Part shown: one piece after another, positions 26-9,164 of the stretch
Layout of the letters: each line of letters begins with the position of its first letter
Position numbering within the stretch: position 1 is the first letter of the stretch
NCBI GenBank assembly: GCA_023127905.1
Contig: JAGMEZ010000244.1
Location: 1 to 10,003, forward strand
From: Caldifarciminota bacterium
GTDB taxonomy: Bacteria; Hydrothermota; E44-bin80
Direction: 5' to 3'
Length of the DNA stretch: 10,003 nt
Notes under the pieces: generated by a model
Database searches by the model: none
What the model saw: the letters and a program-made list of their open reading frames with translations, nothing else
What the model was told of the DNA's origin: nothing
Position numbers and translations under genes: made by a program

Positions 26-1756
26 ATGAAATCAGTTGACCTTCTTCTTTTACACCCTCCCGCAACATTTCGAAGTCCAACGAGATTAGGGCTCCACAAC
101 ATGATAGCCGCTTCTGTTCCCTCCACAGCAGCATTCGAGATTTATCCTCTTGGTTTTCTATCAATAGGGGAGTACCTCGAAAGGCATGGATACCATGTAT
201 CCATCTGTAATCTGGCACTGCTTAACGCGGTTATGCCGTCGATACGACCAGAAACCATTATAAGACGTATTCAAGCAAGGATTGTGGGAATAGACCTCCA
301 CTGGGCAACCCATACTGATGGTGTGTTAGAGCTTGCCAAAATTTTCAAGAATATTCACCCGAATACTCACATAGTTGTTGGGGGTTTCACGGCAAGCGCG
401 TTCTGGCGTGAACTTCTAAGTTATCCTGATATAGATTTCGTTATGCGCGGTGATTCTACGGAATACCCGTTCTTATGTCTTCTGAATGTTTTGATAGGTG
501 GTGGTAACCTAAATGAGGTTCCAAACCTGGCATGGAGAGACAATGACGATAGTATCCTGACTACAGGATTGGAGTGGGTTCCTGATAATATCGATGACTA
601 TCGAACGGATTATGCATGGGGCATTCGTTCAGCTGCAAGGCACATCGACCCGGTAAATGTTCTTTTGAGTATTCCATACCGTGATTGGTTGACCAACCCA
701 TCAGCCGCAGTATTGACACAGAGGGGATGTTCCAACAATTGCTTGATATGTGGTGGAAGTGCAAATGCCTATCTGAATATTTTCAATAGAAAGAGAACAG
801 CCGTCAAGTCACCAGGTGCCGTTATACGTGACGTTGCCAGTGCTGCAAGGATTTTAAGAGGCAGGATCTTTATCGGGTCTGATTTGCAGGAACCAGGGGA
901 GGAATACTATCATGAGGTATTTCAACGCTATGAATCTCTCCGTATTAATAATCCGCTGACTATCGAGGTGATTCAACCCGCACCGTCGGAGTTCTTCGAA
1001 GCTGCAGCGGAAGCTGGATCTGTAACCCTTCAGATGTCCGCGGAAAGCCATGATGAAGATCTGAGGATGCGCTTTGGCAGAAACTATACAAATGATGCTC
1101 TTGAGGGGATGATTGGAGCAGCACTGGATGCGGGGATCAAGGCTGTGAGAATCTTTTTTGGCATTGGTTTACCCGGACAGGATACAGATTCGGTCATGGA
1201 AACAGTTAATTACTGTGGAGAATTGTTAAGCCGCTTTGGGCGTGATGGAAGGTTCTTTCCATTTATCTCAGTTCTTGCTCCATATATCGAACCAGGGAGC
1301 TGTGCATTTGACGAACCTGAACGCTATGGATACAGGAGTTTTTGCTCTACACTTGAAGACTACAGGAATTCAATGAGGCAATATTCGTGGGCACAGTCCT
1401 TCGGTTACGAAACGTATGATATGGAACGATCGGTTATTATTGAAACAACTTATAAGGCTACTATTGAATTGAACCGACTTCACGAAAGACACAATTTGAT
1501 TACTGCGCGAAACCGTCAACGCGAGGAAGAAAGATTAAAGAGGGAATGGCAGGCGGTTCAAAGAAAGAGTACCCATCAGGTAAGATGTATCGTGGGAGAA
1601 TCGAGCCTTTACACTTCGAGATTGCGAGGTTTTTTTATTAAACCTTTTGCATTTCATCCTTTCGGGATCCTGAATGAAGTGTGTGTGGGATTGCGAAGGT
1701 TCTTCAGTGATATGTTTACTGGTAAAGTAAAGAGCCCATGGAAATTTATTATTTAA
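26..1756 (+). CDS. B12-binding domain / radical SAM domain protein
   Basis: A 576-residue cytoplasmic protein with the two-part layout of cobalamin-dependent radical SAM enzymes. The N-terminus (LLLLHPPA, residues 6-13) and residues about 40-155, including VVGGFTAS at 117-124, match the Rossmann-like B12-binding domain. A textbook DxHxxG cobalamin motif is not seen. The radical SAM cluster motif is C235-SNN-C239-LI-C242, followed by GGS, and the core runs to about residue 430. FGIGLPGQD (378-386) is the usual late-barrel segment. A charged stretch near 480-515 and a basic, aromatic tail follow; neither is recognised. Members of this superfamily do methylations, ring rearrangements and other radical chemistry, and the substrate cannot be told here. 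The length and the CxxxCxxCGGS form recall the Ta0216-like B12/radical SAM group, from memory. The start at 26 is chosen because the protein begins right at the domain's first strand; no clear Shine-Dalgarno precedes it. It converges on the minus-strand operon. Confidence 0.88.
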   Translation: MKSVDLLLLHPPATFRSPTRLGLHNMIAASVPSTAAFEIYPLGFLSIGEYLERHGYHVSICNLALLNAVMPSIRPETIIRRIQARIVGIDLHWATHTDGVLELAKIFKNIHPNTHIVVGGFTASAFWRELLSYPDIDFVMRGDSTEYPFLCLLNVLIGGGNLNEVPNLAWRDNDDSILTTGLEWVPDNIDDYRTDYAWGIRSAARHIDPVNVLLSIPYRDWLTNPSAAVLTQRGCSNNCLICGGSANAYLNIFNRKRTAVKSPGAVIRDVASAARILRGRIFIGSDLQEPGEEYYHEVFQRYESLRINNPLTIEVIQPAPSEFFEAAAEAGSVTLQMSAESHDEDLRMRFGRNYTNDALEGMIGAALDAGIKAVRIFFGIGLPGQDTDSVMETVNYCGELLSRFGRDGRFFPFISVLAPYIEPGSCAFDEPERYGYRSFCSTLEDYRNSMRQYSWAQSFGYETYDMERSVIIETTYKATIELNRLHERHNLITARNRQREEERLKREWQAVQRKSTHQVRCIVGESSLYTSRLRGFFIKPFAFHPFGILNEVCVGLRRFFSDMFTGKVKSPWKFII

Positions 1757-1771
1757 CCCCTGCCACTACAA

Positions 1772-2800
1772 TTAATTAAGTAAATTTTCCTTTAAGAATA
1801 ATACTGTTTTTTCGAAGGAAAAAATATACTTGTCTATATTCAAATAGGCGGTTTCTACGATAATAATAAGTGATACTATTCCAATAAAGAGTAAAGCGAG
1901 AGAGTAAACAAAGAGTGCATTTTTTGGTGAAGGTTTGAATATAAACCACAACATGAATAATAACAAGGAAATACCGCCAATACTGGTAAATAGAATAAAT
2001 GCTCTTGAGAGAATGGTAATTTTATAAAGATAGAAAAGGGAAAAAAGACAGAGTATAAAACTAAGAAATATAAAGAATGCTGTTCTTTTTGCTCCGATGC
2101 ATACAGCGAGCGTTTTAAGTCCACGCTTTCTATCACCTTCGATGTCGGGTATCGTCTGACTCCAGTATGGAACAAGTTCAAAAAAGAATCCCGATAGACC
2201 GATAACGATTGCAACCAAGGAAAATGCACGAGATCCATTGTATGCAGCAAATGCCCCCTGTGGAATAAAAAATGCAGCAAGTGCGGGTGGAAGAAATCCG
2301 ATTTTAGTCTTTTTTAGTTTTGCAGAATAGGTGAATATCAGAAAAATACCTATTGCAAGGAGCAAAGCACACATTGCATTAATAAGTAATCCAACTGCAA
2401 GACTCAGAAATGAAAGTACAATACTGGTGATAAGGGCAGTTTTTCTATTAACGAGCCCTAGCACAAGTGGTCTGTTCTGGGTTCTTTTGTTTATTCGGTC
2501 GACCGCCTCATCGCAGACATCGTTGAATATATGTGCTGATGCAATTGCCAGAACAAGACAGAGAACTCCCAGAGCGGATTTTGTAAATGGAGGAAAACCA
2601 TCTGTTGCAAGAAATGCACTTGCAGCAGGAGTTAATACAACAACTACGATAATCATTGGACGCGCCATAGCAAAGAGAGATAGGAATGGAATTAATTTAT
2701 TAATAAATGGGATTGTTTTCAAGAATTCAACGATTTCATCGGTGAAAGAGCGTACCAAACCTCCTAAACGTTCATCAATGTTCTTTTGTCTATTTTTCAT
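1772..2800 (-). CDS. UbiA-family prenyltransferase (second copy in operon)
   Basis: An integral membrane prenyltransferase. UbiA enzymes use Mg2+ bound by two Asp-rich motifs to transfer a polyprenyl chain from its diphosphate to an acceptor. Numbered from the upstream TTG at 2818, the first motif is N99-D100-VC-D103-EAV-D107 and the second is D225-IEG-D229, followed by RKRGLKTLAV. The DxEGDxxxGxxTL form recalls the homogentisate/menaquinone/chlorophyll synthase side of the family. About eight or nine hydrophobic segments span the rest. The start is ambiguous. The 348-codon frame opens with TTG at 2818, overlapping the upstream gene by 17 bp. ATG at 2800 (342 codons) lies one base past the upstream stop and is preferred, although neither has a good Shine-Dalgarno. 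It is the last gene of the four-gene operon, probably translationally coupled to the radical SAM gene. Which acceptor it uses is unknown. Confidence 0.9.
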   Translation of the reverse strand: MKNRQKNIDERLGGLVRSFTDEIVEFLKTIPFINKLIPFLSLFAMARPMIIVVVVLTPAASAFLATDGFPPFTKSALGVLCLVLAIASAHIFNDVCDEAVDRINKRTQNRPLVLGLVNRKTALITSIVLSFLSLAVGLLINAMCALLLAIGIFLIFTYSAKLKKTKIGFLPPALAAFFIPQGAFAAYNGSRAFSLVAIVIGLSGFFFELVPYWSQTIPDIEGDRKRGLKTLAVCIGAKRTAFFIFLSFILCLFSLFYLYKITILSRAFILFTSIGGISLLLFMLWFIFKPSPKNALFVYSLALLFIGIVSLIIIVETAYLNIDKYIFSFEKTVLFLKENLLN

Positions 2801-2801
2801 T

Positions 2802-4007
2802 TTACTGTATTTTTTCAATAGGGTATGGAAGAGATGCGTCTTTTGGTATCGGATAGATATAGCGTTTTCTGAATTCCTTATCCTGAATCATACATGCTCT
2901 ATTTTCGGTTGTATATTCAGCGTGTTTTCTCACTTTTTCCCACATATTTTTGAGCGAGGTTTCACGGATGTTTCCAAATGTAAGAGGAGTATAGGAGCAT
3001 GGAATAAGATCGCCGGCAGGAGTAAAGTGAATCCATCTTCTTCCAGCCATGCAACCAAATCTTTCAGGACTCTCGAAGTAGCTGAATGCCATTACCTTTG
3101 GACCTTTATTCCCTTTCTGGTTTACTTCCTTGTGGAACTTGATGGTACTTTCCCGTTCTTCATCTGTTAATGTATCATCTTCCCGTTCCAGCCATTTTCC
3201 TATTGCAAGGATGTCGTAAAAGGAAACCTCGTGTGCACCAAGTTTCTCTGCAAGTGAGAGCAAGTCATTGAGTGTTTTTCTGTCGGAATTCGTCCTTCGT
3301 ACAACATTGTAAAGACTGACGAAGAGTCCTGCTTCAACTGCTGATTGTGCGCCGGCAGTTGCTTTTTTGAATATGCCTTTTACCTTTCGTATTTTGTCGT
3401 GTTCTTCTTGATAGGGGCTGTCTATACTCACCTGGAGTGTATCGAGACCTGCCTTTTTTAATTTATGTGCAACATCGCCATCGAGATACAGTCCGTTTGT
3501 AAACATAACTGTCAACGAACCGGTAGAGTTTGCATAGGAAATGATGTCATAGATATCTTTTCTCAGAAGCGGTTCACCACCGTCGAAGGTAAAGAGATGG
3601 GTTCCCATCTCAATACCCTGGTCGATAATTGATTTGATCTCATCGAATGTTAATTCTGGTTCTGCCCTGATTCCTTTTGCACAGCAGAAAATACAGTCAC
3701 AGGGACATTTTCCGGTGACAGCGATCGAAATCTGTTCGGGTATCTTTATGCCGTTCATTTTTATCTTTACCTGGTTGGATAGCAATCTCGTTAATGCAGG
3801 GCTTGGTATATACGGTAGCCATCCGGAAAGAACATATTTTTCTTCTGTTGCTATTGCTGGACGTTCGGTAGAGAAATATTCGCTTATCTGTTTAACGATC
3901 GGATTCGCCATATGTTTAAGGAATCCTTCTGCTGTAAATTCAATATCATTATCTTTTAACTTAGCTTTTATTGAAAGACCTGGAAGTTTATAAATTTCGT
4001 ATTCCAT
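2802..4007 (-). CDS. Radical SAM protein with SPASM-like C-terminus
   Basis: A 401-residue radical SAM enzyme. The SAM-cluster motif is C101-PCD-C105-IF-C108, with extra Cys at 103 and 109. FDGGEPLL (141-148) is the SAM-binding GGE motif, and LQVSIDSP (191-198) is the usual strand 4. The C-terminal part has C319 followed by G332-DLIP-C337, with FGNI at 344-347 and a further C372. This resembles a SPASM or twitch auxiliary-cluster region, but with few Cys. About 95 residues precede the barrel, an N-terminal extension that I do not recognise. ATG at 4007 is well supported by GGAGG at 4013-4017; this Shine-Dalgarno overlaps the stop of the upstream prenyltransferase gene, which suggests coupled translation. 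SPASM enzymes often modify peptides, but some act on small molecules. Between two UbiA genes, a role in tailoring a prenylated or aromatic compound is the inference. Substrate unknown. Confidence 0.9.
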   Translation of the reverse strand: MEYEIYKLPGLSIKAKLKDNDIEFTAEGFLKHMANPIVKQISEYFSTERPAIATEEKYVLSGWLPYIPSPALTRLLSNQVKIKMNGIKIPEQISIAVTGKCPCDCIFCCAKGIRAEPELTFDEIKSIIDQGIEMGTHLFTFDGGEPLLRKDIYDIISYANSTGSLTVMFTNGLYLDGDVAHKLKKAGLDTLQVSIDSPYQEEHDKIRKVKGIFKKATAGAQSAVEAGLFVSLYNVVRRTNSDRKTLNDLLSLAEKLGAHEVSFYDILAIGKWLEREDDTLTDEERESTIKFHKEVNQKGNKGPKVMAFSYFESPERFGCMAGRRWIHFTPAGDLIPCSYTPLTFGNIRETSLKNMWEKVRKHAEYTTENRACMIQDKEFRKRYIYPIPKDASLPYPIEKIQ

Positions 4008-4009
4008 TT

Positions 4010-4897
4010 TTACCTCCGGTAAATTCTGGTGGCAATATCGACTATTAATCCAATAAATAAAACGCTTCTATAATTTGCTGCCCGAATGAAAAAGCTCCCG
4101 CCTGCTTCAGGAATTGGTTTTCTTACAAACCTGAAAGCCATCCACAAAAGCCATGAGCCGGAAATAAGGGCAATTGATATATATACCCAGCCAAGAGATG
4201 CAGCACGCCAGATAATAATGGAAAATATAATTCCAATAATCCAGCATACAAGCACGAAACGGGAAGTGAAAGGGATTCCGAACACCACAGGCATCGTTGG
4301 TGCTCCCCTCCTCTCGTCACCTGCAATATCTCTACTAACTCCAGAAAGGGTAAATCCCCAGTCTGTTGCGCATATCATACCTGCAAGCAGCAAACCAGCT
4401 AAGTGAAGTTTTCCATAAGCAAGCCATACTCCGATGGGTACGAGCCCGTATGCTATTCCAACAGGTATAAAACTCAACGGTGTTTTGCGTTTAAAATAGG
4501 CAGAATATGAAGTAATTATTACCGTTGAAGTTATTACAACAATTACAGAGAGTAAGCTGTAAAAACTGAAGATAACGATACTGACACCAAGGAGAAGAAT
4601 GGAGTAAATCAATGCTGCGGAAGGCTTCAATCTCTTTGAAGGAAGGGGTCTCTTTGGAAGATTAACCCTGTCAATGTCAATATCTACAAAGTCATTAAAA
4701 ACATAAGAGCTGACAATAGCACAGAATGCTCCTATGGTGACGAGGAGGATTTTTAACAAGATAATAGGATTGCTGTACATATTTAATAGATATACTGCTA
4801 AAAAAGAGGCTACCATAGGAAGTGTCAGATCCATGATTATAAGTTCAGGACGGAGTAATTCAAAGTAGGCTGCGATGCGTGAGATAGCATTCTTCAT
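4010..4897 (-). CDS. UbiA-family prenyltransferase (first copy in operon)
   Basis: A 295-residue polytopic membrane protein of the usual UbiA length. The first Asp-rich motif is N68-D69-FV-D72-IDI-D76, followed by RVNLPKRPLPS, the segment typical of UbiA enzymes. The second is D190-IAG-D194, followed by ERRGAPTMPV. Both metal/diphosphate-binding motifs are intact, so it is probably active. It differs clearly from the other prenyltransferase of the operon (DIAGDERRG against DIEGDRKRG, and shorter), so the pair are distant paralogs and not a recent duplication. Acceptors in this family include 4-hydroxybenzoate, naphthoates, haem, chlorophyllide, homogentisate and, in archaeal-type lipid synthesis, geranylgeranylglyceryl phosphate; none can be chosen from sequence alone. 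ATG at 4897 lies 5 bp after the ThiC-family stop with a weak purine-rich RBS. The stop at 4010-4012 abuts the RBS of the next gene. Confidence 0.92.
   Translation of the reverse strand: MKNAISRIAAYFELLRPELIIMDLTLPMVASFLAVYLLNMYSNPIILLKILLVTIGAFCAIVSSYVFNDFVDIDIDRVNLPKRPLPSKRLKPSAALIYSILLLGVSIVIFSFYSLLSVIVVITSTVIITSYSAYFKRKTPLSFIPVGIAYGLVPIGVWLAYGKLHLAGLLLAGMICATDWGFTLSGVSRDIAGDERRGAPTMPVVFGIPFTSRFVLVCWIIGIIFSIIIWRAASLGWVYISIALISGSWLLWMAFRFVRKPIPEAGGSFFIRAANYRSVLFIGLIVDIATRIYRR
4013..4017 (-). promoter_or_regulatory. Strong ribosome binding site overlapping a stop codon (coupled translation)
   Basis: On the minus strand GGAGG is directly followed by TAA (4012-4010, stop of the first UbiA gene) and, two bases on, ATG at 4007 of the radical SAM gene. 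Ribosomes finishing the prenyltransferase are placed on the next start, which points to co-production of the two proteins. Confidence 0.7.
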
Positions 4898-4902
4898 CTC
4901 TT

Positions 4903-6195
4903 TTATGTTTCAGGTTCACATTCGGTAAAGAATGCATTGGCAATTTTAAGTGCACAGTATTTTCCACACATAGTGCATGTTTCACGATCCTTTGGAAGAT
5001 GTCTTTCTCTTATCTTTCTTCCTTTTTCTGGTTCTATAAAAAATTTGAATTGTTTTTCCCAGTTTAGGTCTCTTCTCGCTGTAGCAACATTCAAATCCAT
5101 ATCACGTCTTTTTAATTTTATCGTATCTCCGATATGTGCTGCAATTCTTGCAGCGATAACTCCTTCTCTTACATCTTCGGGGAAGGGAAGGCTTAAGTGT
5201 TCAGCAGGTGTTACGTAGCATATAAAATCCGCTCCGTAAGCAGAAGAAAGAGATGCACCTACAGTTGCAGAGATATGATCATATCCAGCAGAGACATCAG
5301 TAACAATTGGACCTAACATATAAAAAGGTGCTTCATTTGTCATTCTCTTCTGCAGGATTACATTAGTTTCGATTTCATCGATAGGGATATGTCCTGGTCC
5401 TTCCACAATAACCTGTACCCCTTCATGTTTTGCCCTCTGGGCAAGTTCTGCATTAATGATTAGTTCCTGGATTTGAGCTCTATCTGTTGAATCGCTTATT
5501 GCTCCGGCTCTCATTCCATTTCCAAGACTTAAAACGGTATCGTATTTTTTCAAAATTTTCAGAAGGTCATCGAATCTTTCATATAAAGGATTTTCACGCT
5601 TATTATGAACTATCCAAGCCGTTATAAAGGCTCCTCCACGGCTTACCAATCCACCGTGCCTGTAGCCTTGATTCCGAAGGCGGTCAAGGGTTAATCTATT
5701 TACTCCACAATGTATTGCCATAAAACCAATTCCGTCTTCACACTGTTTTTCGATTGTTTCAAAAAGAAATTCGTCCGGTAATTTGACTATTGCGCCAAAT
5801 TTTTGTATTGATTCTATTGCAGCCTGATATAAAGGAACGCTTCCAACTGGCATTTTTACAGCCTTTAGGACATCCCTTCTTATCTGGTCAAAATCCCCGC
5901 TTATGCTGAGTTCCATCAGAGTATCTGCTCCAGATTGCTCTGCAATTTGTGCCTTTTCTACCTCCATATCCTTGTCAATAATGTCGGACGATGTCCCTAT
6001 ACTTGCATTTACCTTTGTTCTCAGTCCTTTTCCTATTGCAACTGGAACTTTTCTTCCATTTCCGCATACTATAACAACTTTTCCTTCTTCTATTTTATTA
6101 CGGATGGATTCAGGAGTAATACCCTCTTTTTTTGCGACTTCTTTCATTTTTTCGGTAATCACATTCTTACAAGCGCTCTCTTTTTGCGTTAACAT
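4903..6195 (-). CDS. thiC: ThiC-family radical SAM enzyme (phosphomethylpyrimidine synthase or BzaF-like paralog)
   Basis: A 430-residue ThiC-family protein of the short anaerobe type. ThiC converts aminoimidazole ribotide to HMP-P for thiamin; the paralog BzaF converts the same substrate to 5-hydroxybenzimidazole, the lower-ligand precursor of B12. Visible family hallmarks are GKGLRTKVNASIGTSS (55-70), VSRGGAF (184-190), EGPGHIP (265-271, metal His269), YVTPAEHLSLP (327-337, metal His333) and the C-terminal cluster ligands C407-TM-C410-GKY-C414, a CX2CX3C spacing. Several places differ from the thiamin enzymes I remember: ELSISGDFD (95-103) where DLSTGGD is common, SLGNGMRAG (223-231) where SLGDGLRPG is common, and no KNxNH motif near 45. 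These suggest a paralog, but I cannot confirm which. ATG at 6195 has GGGAG 6-11 bases upstream. It is the first gene of the operon, with no TPP riboswitch seen. Confidence 0.9.
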   Translation of the reverse strand: MLTQKESACKNVITEKMKEVAKKEGITPESIRNKIEEGKVVIVCGNGRKVPVAIGKGLRTKVNASIGTSSDIIDKDMEVEKAQIAEQSGADTLMELSISGDFDQIRRDVLKAVKMPVGSVPLYQAAIESIQKFGAIVKLPDEFLFETIEKQCEDGIGFMAIHCGVNRLTLDRLRNQGYRHGGLVSRGGAFITAWIVHNKRENPLYERFDDLLKILKKYDTVLSLGNGMRAGAISDSTDRAQIQELIINAELAQRAKHEGVQVIVEGPGHIPIDEIETNVILQKRMTNEAPFYMLGPIVTDVSAGYDHISATVGASLSSAYGADFICYVTPAEHLSLPFPEDVREGVIAARIAAHIGDTIKLKRRDMDLNVATARRDLNWEKQFKFFIEPEKGRKIRERHLPKDRETCTMCGKYCALKIANAFFTECEPET

Positions 6196-7278: not shown

Positions 7279-8412
7279 ATGATTAAGAAGATATTTTTAT
7301 TGGTTTGCCTTGCTGTCCTTATTCTCTCCTTTTCGGTTGAGAGGGCAGAGGCGCGATGTGGGTCGTCTGGACCTCCCTGGGCATGGGGATATTATAATGC
7401 TTGCAACTACCATTGGTATCCATACTACCGTTCCTATTACTCTTGGAATCCGTGTTATAGTTGGTACACTCCTTACTGTTATGATGACTACTGTTGTGAT
7501 TACAACTGGGGTTGTTACTATGAACCGTACTATTGCTGTTCACCTGGATGGTATATAAGTTTCTGGATCGGGTGGGGTTGTTTTAACTACTGCTATAATC
7601 CTTACTGGTACTATCCTCCACCTCACTACTACCAACATTATGGTTGGTGTGACTACCATTATTGCTACGACTACCATTACCGTGATTACTACTGGGATGG
7701 ATATGGTAGGTGGAGAGATAATTATAATAATGGAAATAAGTCGTACAGGACCAATAAATATGAAGGAGGGGGTAAGGAATATAGTTTCAATAACAGGAAA
7801 AACAATGCAAAACCCCCGAAGGATTACGGAAAGTATAAAGATAGGAAAAAGGTTAGCAAGCCAAAACGTGATAAGGGCATTTATGAAATTGCTAAAGCAG
7901 ATCCCGTAAAGAAAGGTAGAAGTGTTAAAAAGCCCAGGGATAAATCAAAGACAAAATATGAAGATAAAAAGTCGATGAAGCCAGATCCTATAAAGGGAGG
8001 AAAAGAACCTATTGAGGTTGCAAACGATCATCGTATCCATCTCTACGATAGAGATTTCGGGAAAGATGATAGAGAAAAGAGCGACAAGGATTATGATGGA
8101 AAGAAGGGAGTGAAAGAAAAGAAATCAGTTTCTAAAAAAGAACCTAAGGGAGAGGATAGAAAGAAATCTGACAAGGATTATGGTAAAAAAAGTGGAGTGA
8201 AAGGAAAAGAATCTGTTTCAAAAAAGAAACCGCGTGAAGAAGAGAAAAAGAAGGATGCTGCAAAATATGAGAAGAAAAAAGTTTCCAGTAAAAAACGCTT
8301 TTCTTCATCCAGCAAGAAAGGCTTTTCTTCATCTAATAAGAAAAATCCTTCTTCAAAAAGCAATAATAGAAAATCTCCTTCAAGTAAAAGCAAGAGTGGG
8401 AAGAGGAGATAG
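7279..8412 (+). CDS. Secreted Tyr/Cys/Trp-rich protein with Lys/Ser-rich tail
   Basis: A 377-residue protein with no family that I recognise. AGGAGG lies just upstream of ATG 7279. Residues 1-26 are a Sec signal peptide (probable AEA/R cleavage). Residues about 27-150 are extreme in composition: 36 Tyr in residues 31-150 (30%), 13 Cys from C27 to C129, many Trp, Asn, Asp and Pro, and short patterns such as YCCDYNWGCYYEPYYCC. From about 150 the protein turns hydrophilic and highly basic. It carries a 29-residue tandem repeat (264-292 and 293-321, 20 of 29 identical) and ends in SSK/FSSSSKK runs. The aromatic half could cross-link through disulfides or dityrosine, or pack as a structural matrix; the tail could bind polyanions such as cell-wall polymers, DNA or acidic proteins. 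Both ideas are inference. The stop codon is 2 bp from the next gene, so co-expression is likely. Confidence 0.85.
   Translation: MIKKIFLLVCLAVLILSFSVERAEARCGSSGPPWAWGYYNACNYHWYPYYRSYYSWNPCYSWYTPYCYDDYCCDYNWGCYYEPYYCCSPGWYISFWIGWGCFNYCYNPYWYYPPPHYYQHYGWCDYHYCYDYHYRDYYWDGYGRWRDNYNNGNKSYRTNKYEGGGKEYSFNNRKNNAKPPKDYGKYKDRKKVSKPKRDKGIYEIAKADPVKKGRSVKKPRDKSKTKYEDKKSMKPDPIKGGKEPIEVANDHRIHLYDRDFGKDDREKSDKDYDGKKGVKEKKSVSKKEPKGEDRKKSDKDYGKKSGVKGKESVSKKKPREEEKKKDAAKYEKKKVSSKKRFSSSSKKGFSSSNKKNPSSKSNNRKSPSSKSKSGKRR
8068..8241 (+). repeat. 87-bp in-frame tandem repeat, two copies
   Basis: Units 8068-8154 and 8155-8241 encode consecutive 29-residue blocks beginning DREKSDKDY and DRKKSDKDY. They align without gaps at 20 of 29 residues. 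The repeat lies in the basic half of the Tyr/Cys-rich secreted protein. Confidence 0.75.
8296..8343 (+). repeat. 24-bp in-frame tandem repeat, two copies
   Basis: Units 8296-8319 and 8320-8343 share GCTTTTCTTCATC and an AAGAAA end. They encode RFSSSSKK and GFSSSNKK in the Ser/Lys-rich tail of the secreted protein. This is a small expansion inside the low-complexity tail. Confidence 0.7.
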
Positions 8413-8414
8413 GG

Positions 8415-9164
8415 ATGAAGAGGTTGCTATTTTTCTTGCTTTCTCTTTTTGTCCTTTTCGCTAATACAACGGCTCAGGAAGAGTACAATTTAGAAATTGA
8501 TGTATCAGTAGACAAGGGAGATGAGGCGGTATACTATGATGAAGAGCCTATTTTTATATCATTTAGAACAACTGAGAATGCATATGTTATTATTTATGAT
8601 ATAGATACAGATGGGAACCTCCACCTCATATTTCCTGAACGAGAGGAGGGAAGAGGATTTATAAGGGCAAATAGAACATATCAGATTCCAGCAGATAACG
8701 ATGATTATAGTTTAAGAATTAAAGGACCTCCGGGGGAGGAATTTATCTGTGCAGTTGCTTCAACTGAACCTTTGAGAATCCCTGCTGTTTTCAGAGGAGA
8801 GGAAGAATCACAATTTAAGGTAGAAGGTGATCCTGAGAAAGCAATAGAGAATATAACAGAAGATATTCTTGAAGGAAACAGGGGTGCGTATGCTACCGAT
8901 ATTTGTTACCTGTATGTTGAGTGTCCATTTCCGCCCCCACCACTTTATTGTGCAGTTGAGATTGTATCGAAGCCAAGTGGTGCGAAAATTTATCTTAACG
9001 GACGATACTTTGGCAGGACACCTGCAGTAATTACAGGTATTCCACCAGGGGTACACAGGCTTGTTTTAAACAAGAAATGTTATTATAGATATATGAGAGA
9101 GATAGTACTTGGCAAGGGAGAGAGAGAGCGAGTGAAAGTCCGTTTGAAATGGAAACTCTGGTGA
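8415..9164 (+). CDS. Secreted DUF4384 + PEGA domain protein
   Basis: A 249-residue exported protein. ATG 8415 follows the previous stop by 2 bp, with AGGAG (8404-8408) as RBS inside the end of the upstream gene, so translation is probably coupled. Residues 1-20 form a signal peptide ending TTAQ. Residues about 28-118 match the DUF4384 pattern: paired acidic beta strands, AYVIIYDIDTDGNLHLIFP (56-74), then RTYQIPADNDDY, a domain often fused to surface or kinase-associated proteins. Residues about 180-247 are a PEGA domain: VEIVSKPSGAKIYLNGRYFG, RTPAVITGIPPGVHRLVL. PEGA domains are thought to sit at cell-surface layers. A Cys- and Pro-rich linker (164-179, with CPFPPPP) separates them. A role in envelope or extracellular assembly alongside its neighbours is inferred; no catalytic residues are seen. 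Confidence 0.87.
   Translation: MKRLLFFLLSLFVLFANTTAQEEYNLEIDVSVDKGDEAVYYDEEPIFISFRTTENAYVIIYDIDTDGNLHLIFPEREEGRGFIRANRTYQIPADNDDYSLRIKGPPGEEFICAVASTEPLRIPAVFRGEEESQFKVEGDPEKAIENITEDILEGNRGAYATDICYLYVECPFPPPPLYCAVEIVSKPSGAKIYLNGRYFGRTPAVITGIPPGVHRLVLNKKCYYRYMREIVLGKGERERVKVRLKWKLW

Follow-up and report, generated by a model that had tools for sequence, protein, structure and literature searches.

The stretch of DNA analysed here (the window: 10,003 nucleotides, contig JAGMEZ010000244.1, from a Caldifarciminota bacterium) carries on its minus strand a compact operon for a ThiC paralogue, a UbiA prenyltransferase (UbiA1), a radical SAM/SPASM enzyme and a second UbiA prenyltransferase (UbiA2). 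On balance, this operon is probably a dedicated pathway to a prenylated, nitrogen-heterocyclic aromatic membrane compound derived from aminoimidazole ribotide (AIR), and would share enzyme families with the synthesis of methanophenazine. Each catalytic step, as well as the compound itself, we infer from sequence. Judging from its clade and active-site residues, the ThiC paralogue would likely convert AIR to a ring of the 5-hydroxybenzimidazole (5-HBI) type instead of the thiamin pyrimidine, and UbiA1, by its clade and motifs, could plausibly prenylate this ring or a derivative of it. More speculatively, the radical SAM/SPASM enzyme may remodel the head group or ring, and our guess for UbiA2, the sister of UbiA1, is a second transfer or another acceptor. 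Because its UbiA and radical SAM families would also serve the methanophenazine pathway of Methanosarcinales, a redox-active membrane carrier would be the likeliest role. In the literature searched, a body that excludes most subscription papers, neither this set of four genes nor a ThiC-family product in a membrane lipid, which the proposed pathway would entail if true, is described.

The gaps between the four open reading frames (ORFs) measure 5, 2 and 1 bp when UbiA2 is taken to begin at its ATG, and all of their Pfam matches (ThiC, UbiA twice, Radical_SAM and SPASM) lie above the family cut-offs. The ThiC paralogue has the motif CTMCGKYC (CX2CX3C) at 407 and the radical SAM enzyme CX3CX2C at 101, while NDxxDxxxD and DxxGD are present in UbiA1 and UbiA2 alike. 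Because four long Pfam-positive ORFs stand in a row, the operon is not a product of chance. The original prediction, made from the letters of the window, had described four tightly spaced minus-strand genes of these families with intact catalytic motifs, and its coordinates, gaps and identities were all borne out. The gene-neighbourhood search that it proposed was also positive: the identical four genes occur in identical order in another Cloacimonadota genus of the same family (locus L023 and genome G003, treated as one genome since contig numbers and coordinates agree), with identities to the window of 88% for ThiC and 83% for UbiA1. Among 147 genomes of the phylum, UbiA1 (E up to 1e-40) was found in two, namely G003 and the window's own genome (G000; 2.88 Mb in 668 contigs, 89% complete, 3.6% contaminated). 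Separate protein searches further returned sources with equal largest contigs: 9,855 for ThiC P0123, radical SAM P0006 and UbiA2 P0246; 7,539 for radical SAM P0007 and UbiA2 P0247; 7,597 for ThiC P0124 and UbiA2 P0250; and 5,591 for ThiC P0128 and radical SAM P0012, both labelled Planctomycetota. These matching sizes are an indirect sign of linkage, and suggest that the operon is also present in other bacteria and phyla.

To place the ThiC paralogue, a tree of 75 sequences was used; 48 were chosen for it from the 120 listed homologues, and the partial L144 was omitted. With a support of 0.957, the operon ThiC groups in a clade of 58 members that also holds archaeal ThiC paralogues as well as P0168 and P0173, two proteins that bear the automatic name 5-HBI synthase from the Joint Genome Institute. 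The canonical ThiCs of G003 and of archaea form a separate clade (support 0.923); the bacterial members of the operon's clade, taken as a group of their own, have a support of only 0.182. Alignment to solved thiamin ThiCs places Glu265 of the window protein opposite CcThiC Glu413 and AtThiC Glu422, two residues given as equivalent in PMC11117688 (here and below, papers are cited for the parts of their text that were available). This match fixes the register, and therefore AtThiC Asp383 corresponds to Asn226 and AtThiC Asn228 to Ser65 of the window protein. The pair Ser65/Asn226 is found in all 58 clade members and in none of 10 canonical ThiCs, all of which have Asn65/Asp226. In AtThiC, D383 binds N3 of AIR; the D383A and N228D variants yield no hydroxymethylpyrimidine phosphate (HMP-P), and D383N gives a partial rescue (PMC11117688). 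As the equivalents of both residues, needed for HMP-P in AtThiC, are changed, a non-thiamin product is likely: by its sequence the operon enzyme probably does not serve thiamin synthesis, and its product is likely to be a 5-HBI-type ring, 5-HBI being the known alternative product from AIR. What it has in common with thiamin ThiC, apart from the family, is the Fe-S cysteine motif and Glu265, His269 and His333, of which the two histidines are presumably ligands.

G003 encodes a second, canonical ThiC, whose gene begins inside the end of another, one that encodes ThiD2 and thiamin-phosphate-synthase domains. The separate canonical thiC that the original prediction had named as a check is thus present in the relative, beside thiD2-thiE, whereas in the window's own genome the operon ThiC is the only one found; as this assembly is only 89% complete, a second thiC may be missing from it. 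An Rfam scan of the window found no thiamin pyrophosphate or cobalamin riboswitch, with no family at its gathering score, and the sole match with E up to 1 was a sub-threshold PK-repBA. Two further observations concern ThiC nomenclature and diversity. A third archaeal ThiC paralogue (L155-L161) has Asn65 and Asn226 in 7 of 7 sequences, mixing canonical and 5-HBI-type residues. The name ThiC given to P0199, P0221 and P0232 (from Anammoxibacter, Brocadiales and Scalindua) may be wrong, since these proteins lie in the clade with Ser65/Asn226.

Trees of the UbiA and radical SAM proteins were built on a chosen subset of sequences. UbiA1 and a UbiA specific to Methanosarcinales form one clade with a support of 1.00, to which UbiA2 is the sister (support 0.95). 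The UbiA2 search gave 33 matches, 13 of them (the window's own included) at 51% identity or more and the next at 58 bits; this sharp drop suggests that UbiA2 is a rare and dedicated family. Both proteins belong to the UbiA superfamily by their Pfam domain and two Asp-rich motifs, as do the UbiA enzymes of ubiquinone, menaquinone, haem O and archaeal ether lipids. Unlike these, they reach no NCBIfam cut-off among the best 25 models listed for each protein, haem O, ether-lipid and menaquinone models included; for the two proteins the best scores are 104 and 101 of 269 bits for PRK12884, and 91 and 88 of 210 bits for haem O synthase. By these cut-offs a known quinone (MenA/MqnP), haem O or ether-lipid (DGGGP synthase) UbiA was rejected, a result in favour of the original prediction, and the head group of the operon's compound is apparently not derived from benzoate, naphthoate, haem or glycerol. 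On the quinone check that the original prediction proposed, MqnA/MqnD of the futalosine menaquinone route were found in none of four genomes of the family, with positive controls in 4 of 14, and the Men route was judged solely through a UbiA census. That census of the window's own genome gave six matches and, of three scanned, one passes the cut-offs for decaprenyl-phosphate phosphoribosyltransferase. Separately, G000 contig C545 (locus L232, scanned as L019) carries at 123-956 (-) a UbiA resembling the archaeal ether-lipid synthase, with 219.5 bits for PRK12884 and 198 bits for PRK12882, both below cut-off.

The structure model of the radical SAM/SPASM enzyme (mean pLDDT 89.6) has an ordinary radical SAM-SPASM core at residues 67-387. 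Residues 1-66, searched as part of the whole protein, are barely covered by structure matches, and this N-terminal segment of its own distinguishes the enzyme from PqqE, SkfB and SuiB. The substrate is not decided by the 50 listed structure matches, most of which have peptides or nucleotides as substrates. The NCBIfam scores stay under the cut-offs, at 148 of 500 bits for AhbD, 142 of 500 for NirJ2 and 119 of 381 for PqqE. After its own bacterial group, the nearest relatives of the enzyme are from Methanosarcinales. Of 234 loci in the radical SAM search 80 were kept, one from Cloacimonadota and 79 with archaeal titles; two of the latter are labelled just Euryarchaeota archaeon, and the other 77 belong to Methanosarcinales, Methanosarcinaceae genera, ANME-2, Methanothrix or Methanoperedenaceae.

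The biosynthesis of methanophenazine is still called unknown in the available text of PMC6315138, PMC11477647 and PMC5852551. Kinship of the operon with this route was judged by shared families and gene placement, since the geranylfarnesyl diphosphate (GFPP) synthase is the only pathway gene to have been assigned experimentally. Of the 79 archaeal loci, 3 with under 1 kb upstream were set aside; in 55 of the other 76, a gene for a polyprenyl synthase of the GFPP type lies directly upstream of the radical SAM relative. The polyprenyl synthase of locus L066 scores 535 bits against NF040627, the methanogen GFPP synthase model, under its cut-off of 600. MM_0789 of M. mazei has GFPP synthase activity and was assigned to methanophenazine by Ogawa et al. 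(cited in PMC3017947); the L066-type gene would be its counterpart.

In ten archaeal genomes taken from the radical SAM loci, a counterpart of UbiA1 was found in nine (245-276 bits, compared with at most 64.4 for other UbiAs) and the ThiC clade in eight (498-554 bits, compared with at most 422 for others). A gene of the geranylgeranyl-reductase (GGR) family comes right after the archaeal UbiA1 in eight of nine loci, followed in six of the nine by a paralogue of the radical SAM gene, one of these being a fragment. The methanophenazine chain is partly saturated, a point for which the literature search gave no confirmation, and a GGR-family reductase would fit such a chain. At locus L177, the UbiA1-GGR-radical SAM stretch is followed by genes for a [NiFe] hydrogenase and cytochrome b561, the gene set of the methanophenazine-reducing hydrogenase (PMC9478090).

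Co-occurrence was examined in 148 genomes of the Methanosarcina phylum, which we take to be Halobacteriota of GTDB. UbiA1 is present in 25 of them, with scores of 396 bits or more and the next match at 82. All 25 are among the 29 genomes that carry a top-tier radical SAM relative, scoring 512 bits or more (Fisher P = 1.8e-24). Members of the ThiC clade, which score 757 bits or more against 549 for the next match, occur in 53 genomes, and 24 of the 25 genomes with UbiA1 are among these (Fisher P = 5.5e-12), though both P values overstate independence because the genomes are kin. With the candidate methanophenazine genes of Methanosarcinales the operon has in common the UbiA1 and radical SAM families, whose archaeal members adjoin a GFPP-synthase-type or GGR-family gene, and a ThiC-clade paralogue, present in those 24 of 25 genomes. 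It differs in its bacterial host, in having ThiC within the same operon and an extra UbiA2, and in lacking a GFPP synthase and a close GGR relative. By uniting families that are mostly scattered in archaea, the operon names candidates for the archaeal pathway: UbiA1, the radical SAM paralogues, the GGR-family reductase and the ThiC-clade paralogue.

In its boldest form, the proposal is that 5-HBI supplies the hydroxylated o-diamino ring of methanophenazine, with the radical SAM/SPASM enzymes adding the second ring and UbiA1 the C25 chain, and that a phenazine-like membrane carrier is made in the same manner in some Cloacimonadota and in further bacteria. We regard this extension as rather unlikely. 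Chemical reasoning in its favour is that 5-HBI is an o-diaminobenzene with the hydroxyl group beta to the nitrogen-bearing ring-fusion carbons, which matches 2-hydroxyphenazine, and that its synthesis is anaerobic. If this were true, the chemistry of B12 ligands and methanogen respiration would have a common precursor.

A number of observations weigh against the proposed pathway, several of them on the side of ThiC. In the ThiC tree, 5-HBI synthases are represented by the two automatically named proteins alone. The operon ThiC, the only one found in its own genome, passes the NCBIfam thiamin cut-offs (PRK13352, 582 of 410 bits; TIGR00190, 564 of 460), in a list that holds no BzaF model, and is under the cut-off of the BzaB model TIGR04386 (548.5 of 700 bits). 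In archaea, the ThiC clade occurs in 29 genomes that lack UbiA1, while G180 and G068 have UbiA1 and no ThiC-clade member; G068 is labelled Methanoperedenaceae, and menaquinone use is reported for M. nitroreducens (PMC5244752). The ThiC-clade gene was distant from UbiA1 in all eight archaeal ThiC-clade loci inspected, in one of which (L169, from the genome of L067) a gene of the radical SAM family lies ~4 kb away. In G118 and G185 the distance to UbiA1 is ~4 kb, with unrelated genes between, and in G149 ~27 kb. In the host family, the GGR linked to archaeal UbiA1 finds nothing better than weak matches of at most 75 bits. The window radical SAM protein branches outside the archaeal pair in the tree and is therefore a co-orthologue; strict orthology with the GFPP-linked archaeal protein was dropped on this ground. 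The radical SAM family is also present in archaea without UbiA1. Four such loci (L219-L222) each group two or three genes of the family with a GGR-family gene and a further radical SAM gene, which in L219 is PTO1314-like; L219 has in addition a weak UbiA. These clusters perhaps serve another prenylated carrier or lipid. The claims of the original prediction are partly supported, and most of its own checks were favourable. The ThiC paralogue points to a benzimidazole type of head group; against the prediction stand the single ThiC of the window's own genome and the thiamin cut-offs that this enzyme passes. The idea of an electron carrier gains support from kinship with genes of methanophenazine-making archaea, an indirect form of support.

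Of the alternatives, the one that survives best is that 5-HBI from the ThiC paralogue serves solely as the lower ligand of a cobamide, in the cell or its neighbours, and that the gene stands in the operon incidentally, the prenylated lipid or carrier made by the UbiAs and the radical SAM enzyme having nothing to do with it. Such ThiC paralogues are indeed known to produce 5-HBI for cobamides (PMC7726332, PMC6461909), and bza genes are enriched among cobamide producers (PMC6461909). The archaeal ThiC clade is wider than UbiA1 (53 compared with 25 of 148) and mostly unlinked to it, and its wider spread agrees with the place of 5-HBI in Factor III, where it is the ligand in methanogens (PMC10989573, PMC9561151). 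On the other hand, CobT (PF02277) was found in none of four genomes of the host family (77-94% complete, with two at 90% or more; positive controls in 7 of 14), which makes cobamide use in the host less likely. In contrast to BzaF-type 5-HBI synthases, which are likewise of the ThiC family, the operon ThiC (in its clade and Ser65/Asn226 like the two automatically named proteins) is accompanied by UbiA and radical SAM genes, and it is kept in a tight operon with UbiA1, the radical SAM enzyme and UbiA2 across two genera and apparently beyond. We therefore consider this alternative unlikely.

It is very unlikely that haem is the substrate of the UbiA and radical SAM enzymes, which would then yield a prenylated or altered haem for membrane cytochromes, with ThiC as a passenger. 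The haem b synthase AhbD and NirJ2 are the best sub-threshold NCBIfam matches of the radical SAM enzyme, haem O synthase is among the better ones of both UbiAs, and a gene with a CcmE domain lies near the archaeal radical SAM gene, but the scores given above are far under the cut-offs, and the ThiC paralogue would be left without a role. Least likely of all is a chance mixture around an ordinary thiamin ThiC: the single ThiC of the window's own genome and its thiamin model scores would agree with this, but the incompleteness of that genome, the second thiC of G003, the tree and the replaced active-site residues, for one of which even the Asp-to-Asn change gave only partial rescue, led us to reject thiamin synthesis as the role of the operon.

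Table 1. Genes of the operon and the convergent neighbouring gene, in window coordinates
Feature	Coordinates	Strand	Length	Family match	Remarks
ThiC paralogue	4903..6195	-	430 aa	PF01964, 591.7 bits	probable non-thiamin AIR rearrangase, 5-HBI-synthase-type clade
UbiA1	4010..4897	-	295 aa	PF01040, 139.0 bits	one clade with Methanosarcinales-specific UbiA
Radical SAM/SPASM enzyme	2802..4007	-	401 aa	PF04055, 78.6 bits; PF13186, 30.4 bits	family common to Methanosarcinales
UbiA2	1772..2800	-	342 aa	PF01040, 138.8 bits	from ATG at 2800
UbiA2, alternative start	1772..2818	-	348 aa		from TTG at 2818; overlaps radical SAM gene by 17 bp
B12-binding radical SAM gene	26..1756	+		TIGR04190, 500.8 bits (cut-off 500)	convergent with operon

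The TIGR04190 gene next to the operon occupies the same relative place and side in L023, where it is truncated by the contig end, and its membership in the pathway is uncertain. Elsewhere in the window, an ORF at 7279-8412 (+) combines an N-terminal half rich in Tyr, Cys and Trp with a Lys-rich C-terminal half; it has no Pfam match and adjoins a gene with DUF4384 and PEGA domains (8415-9164).

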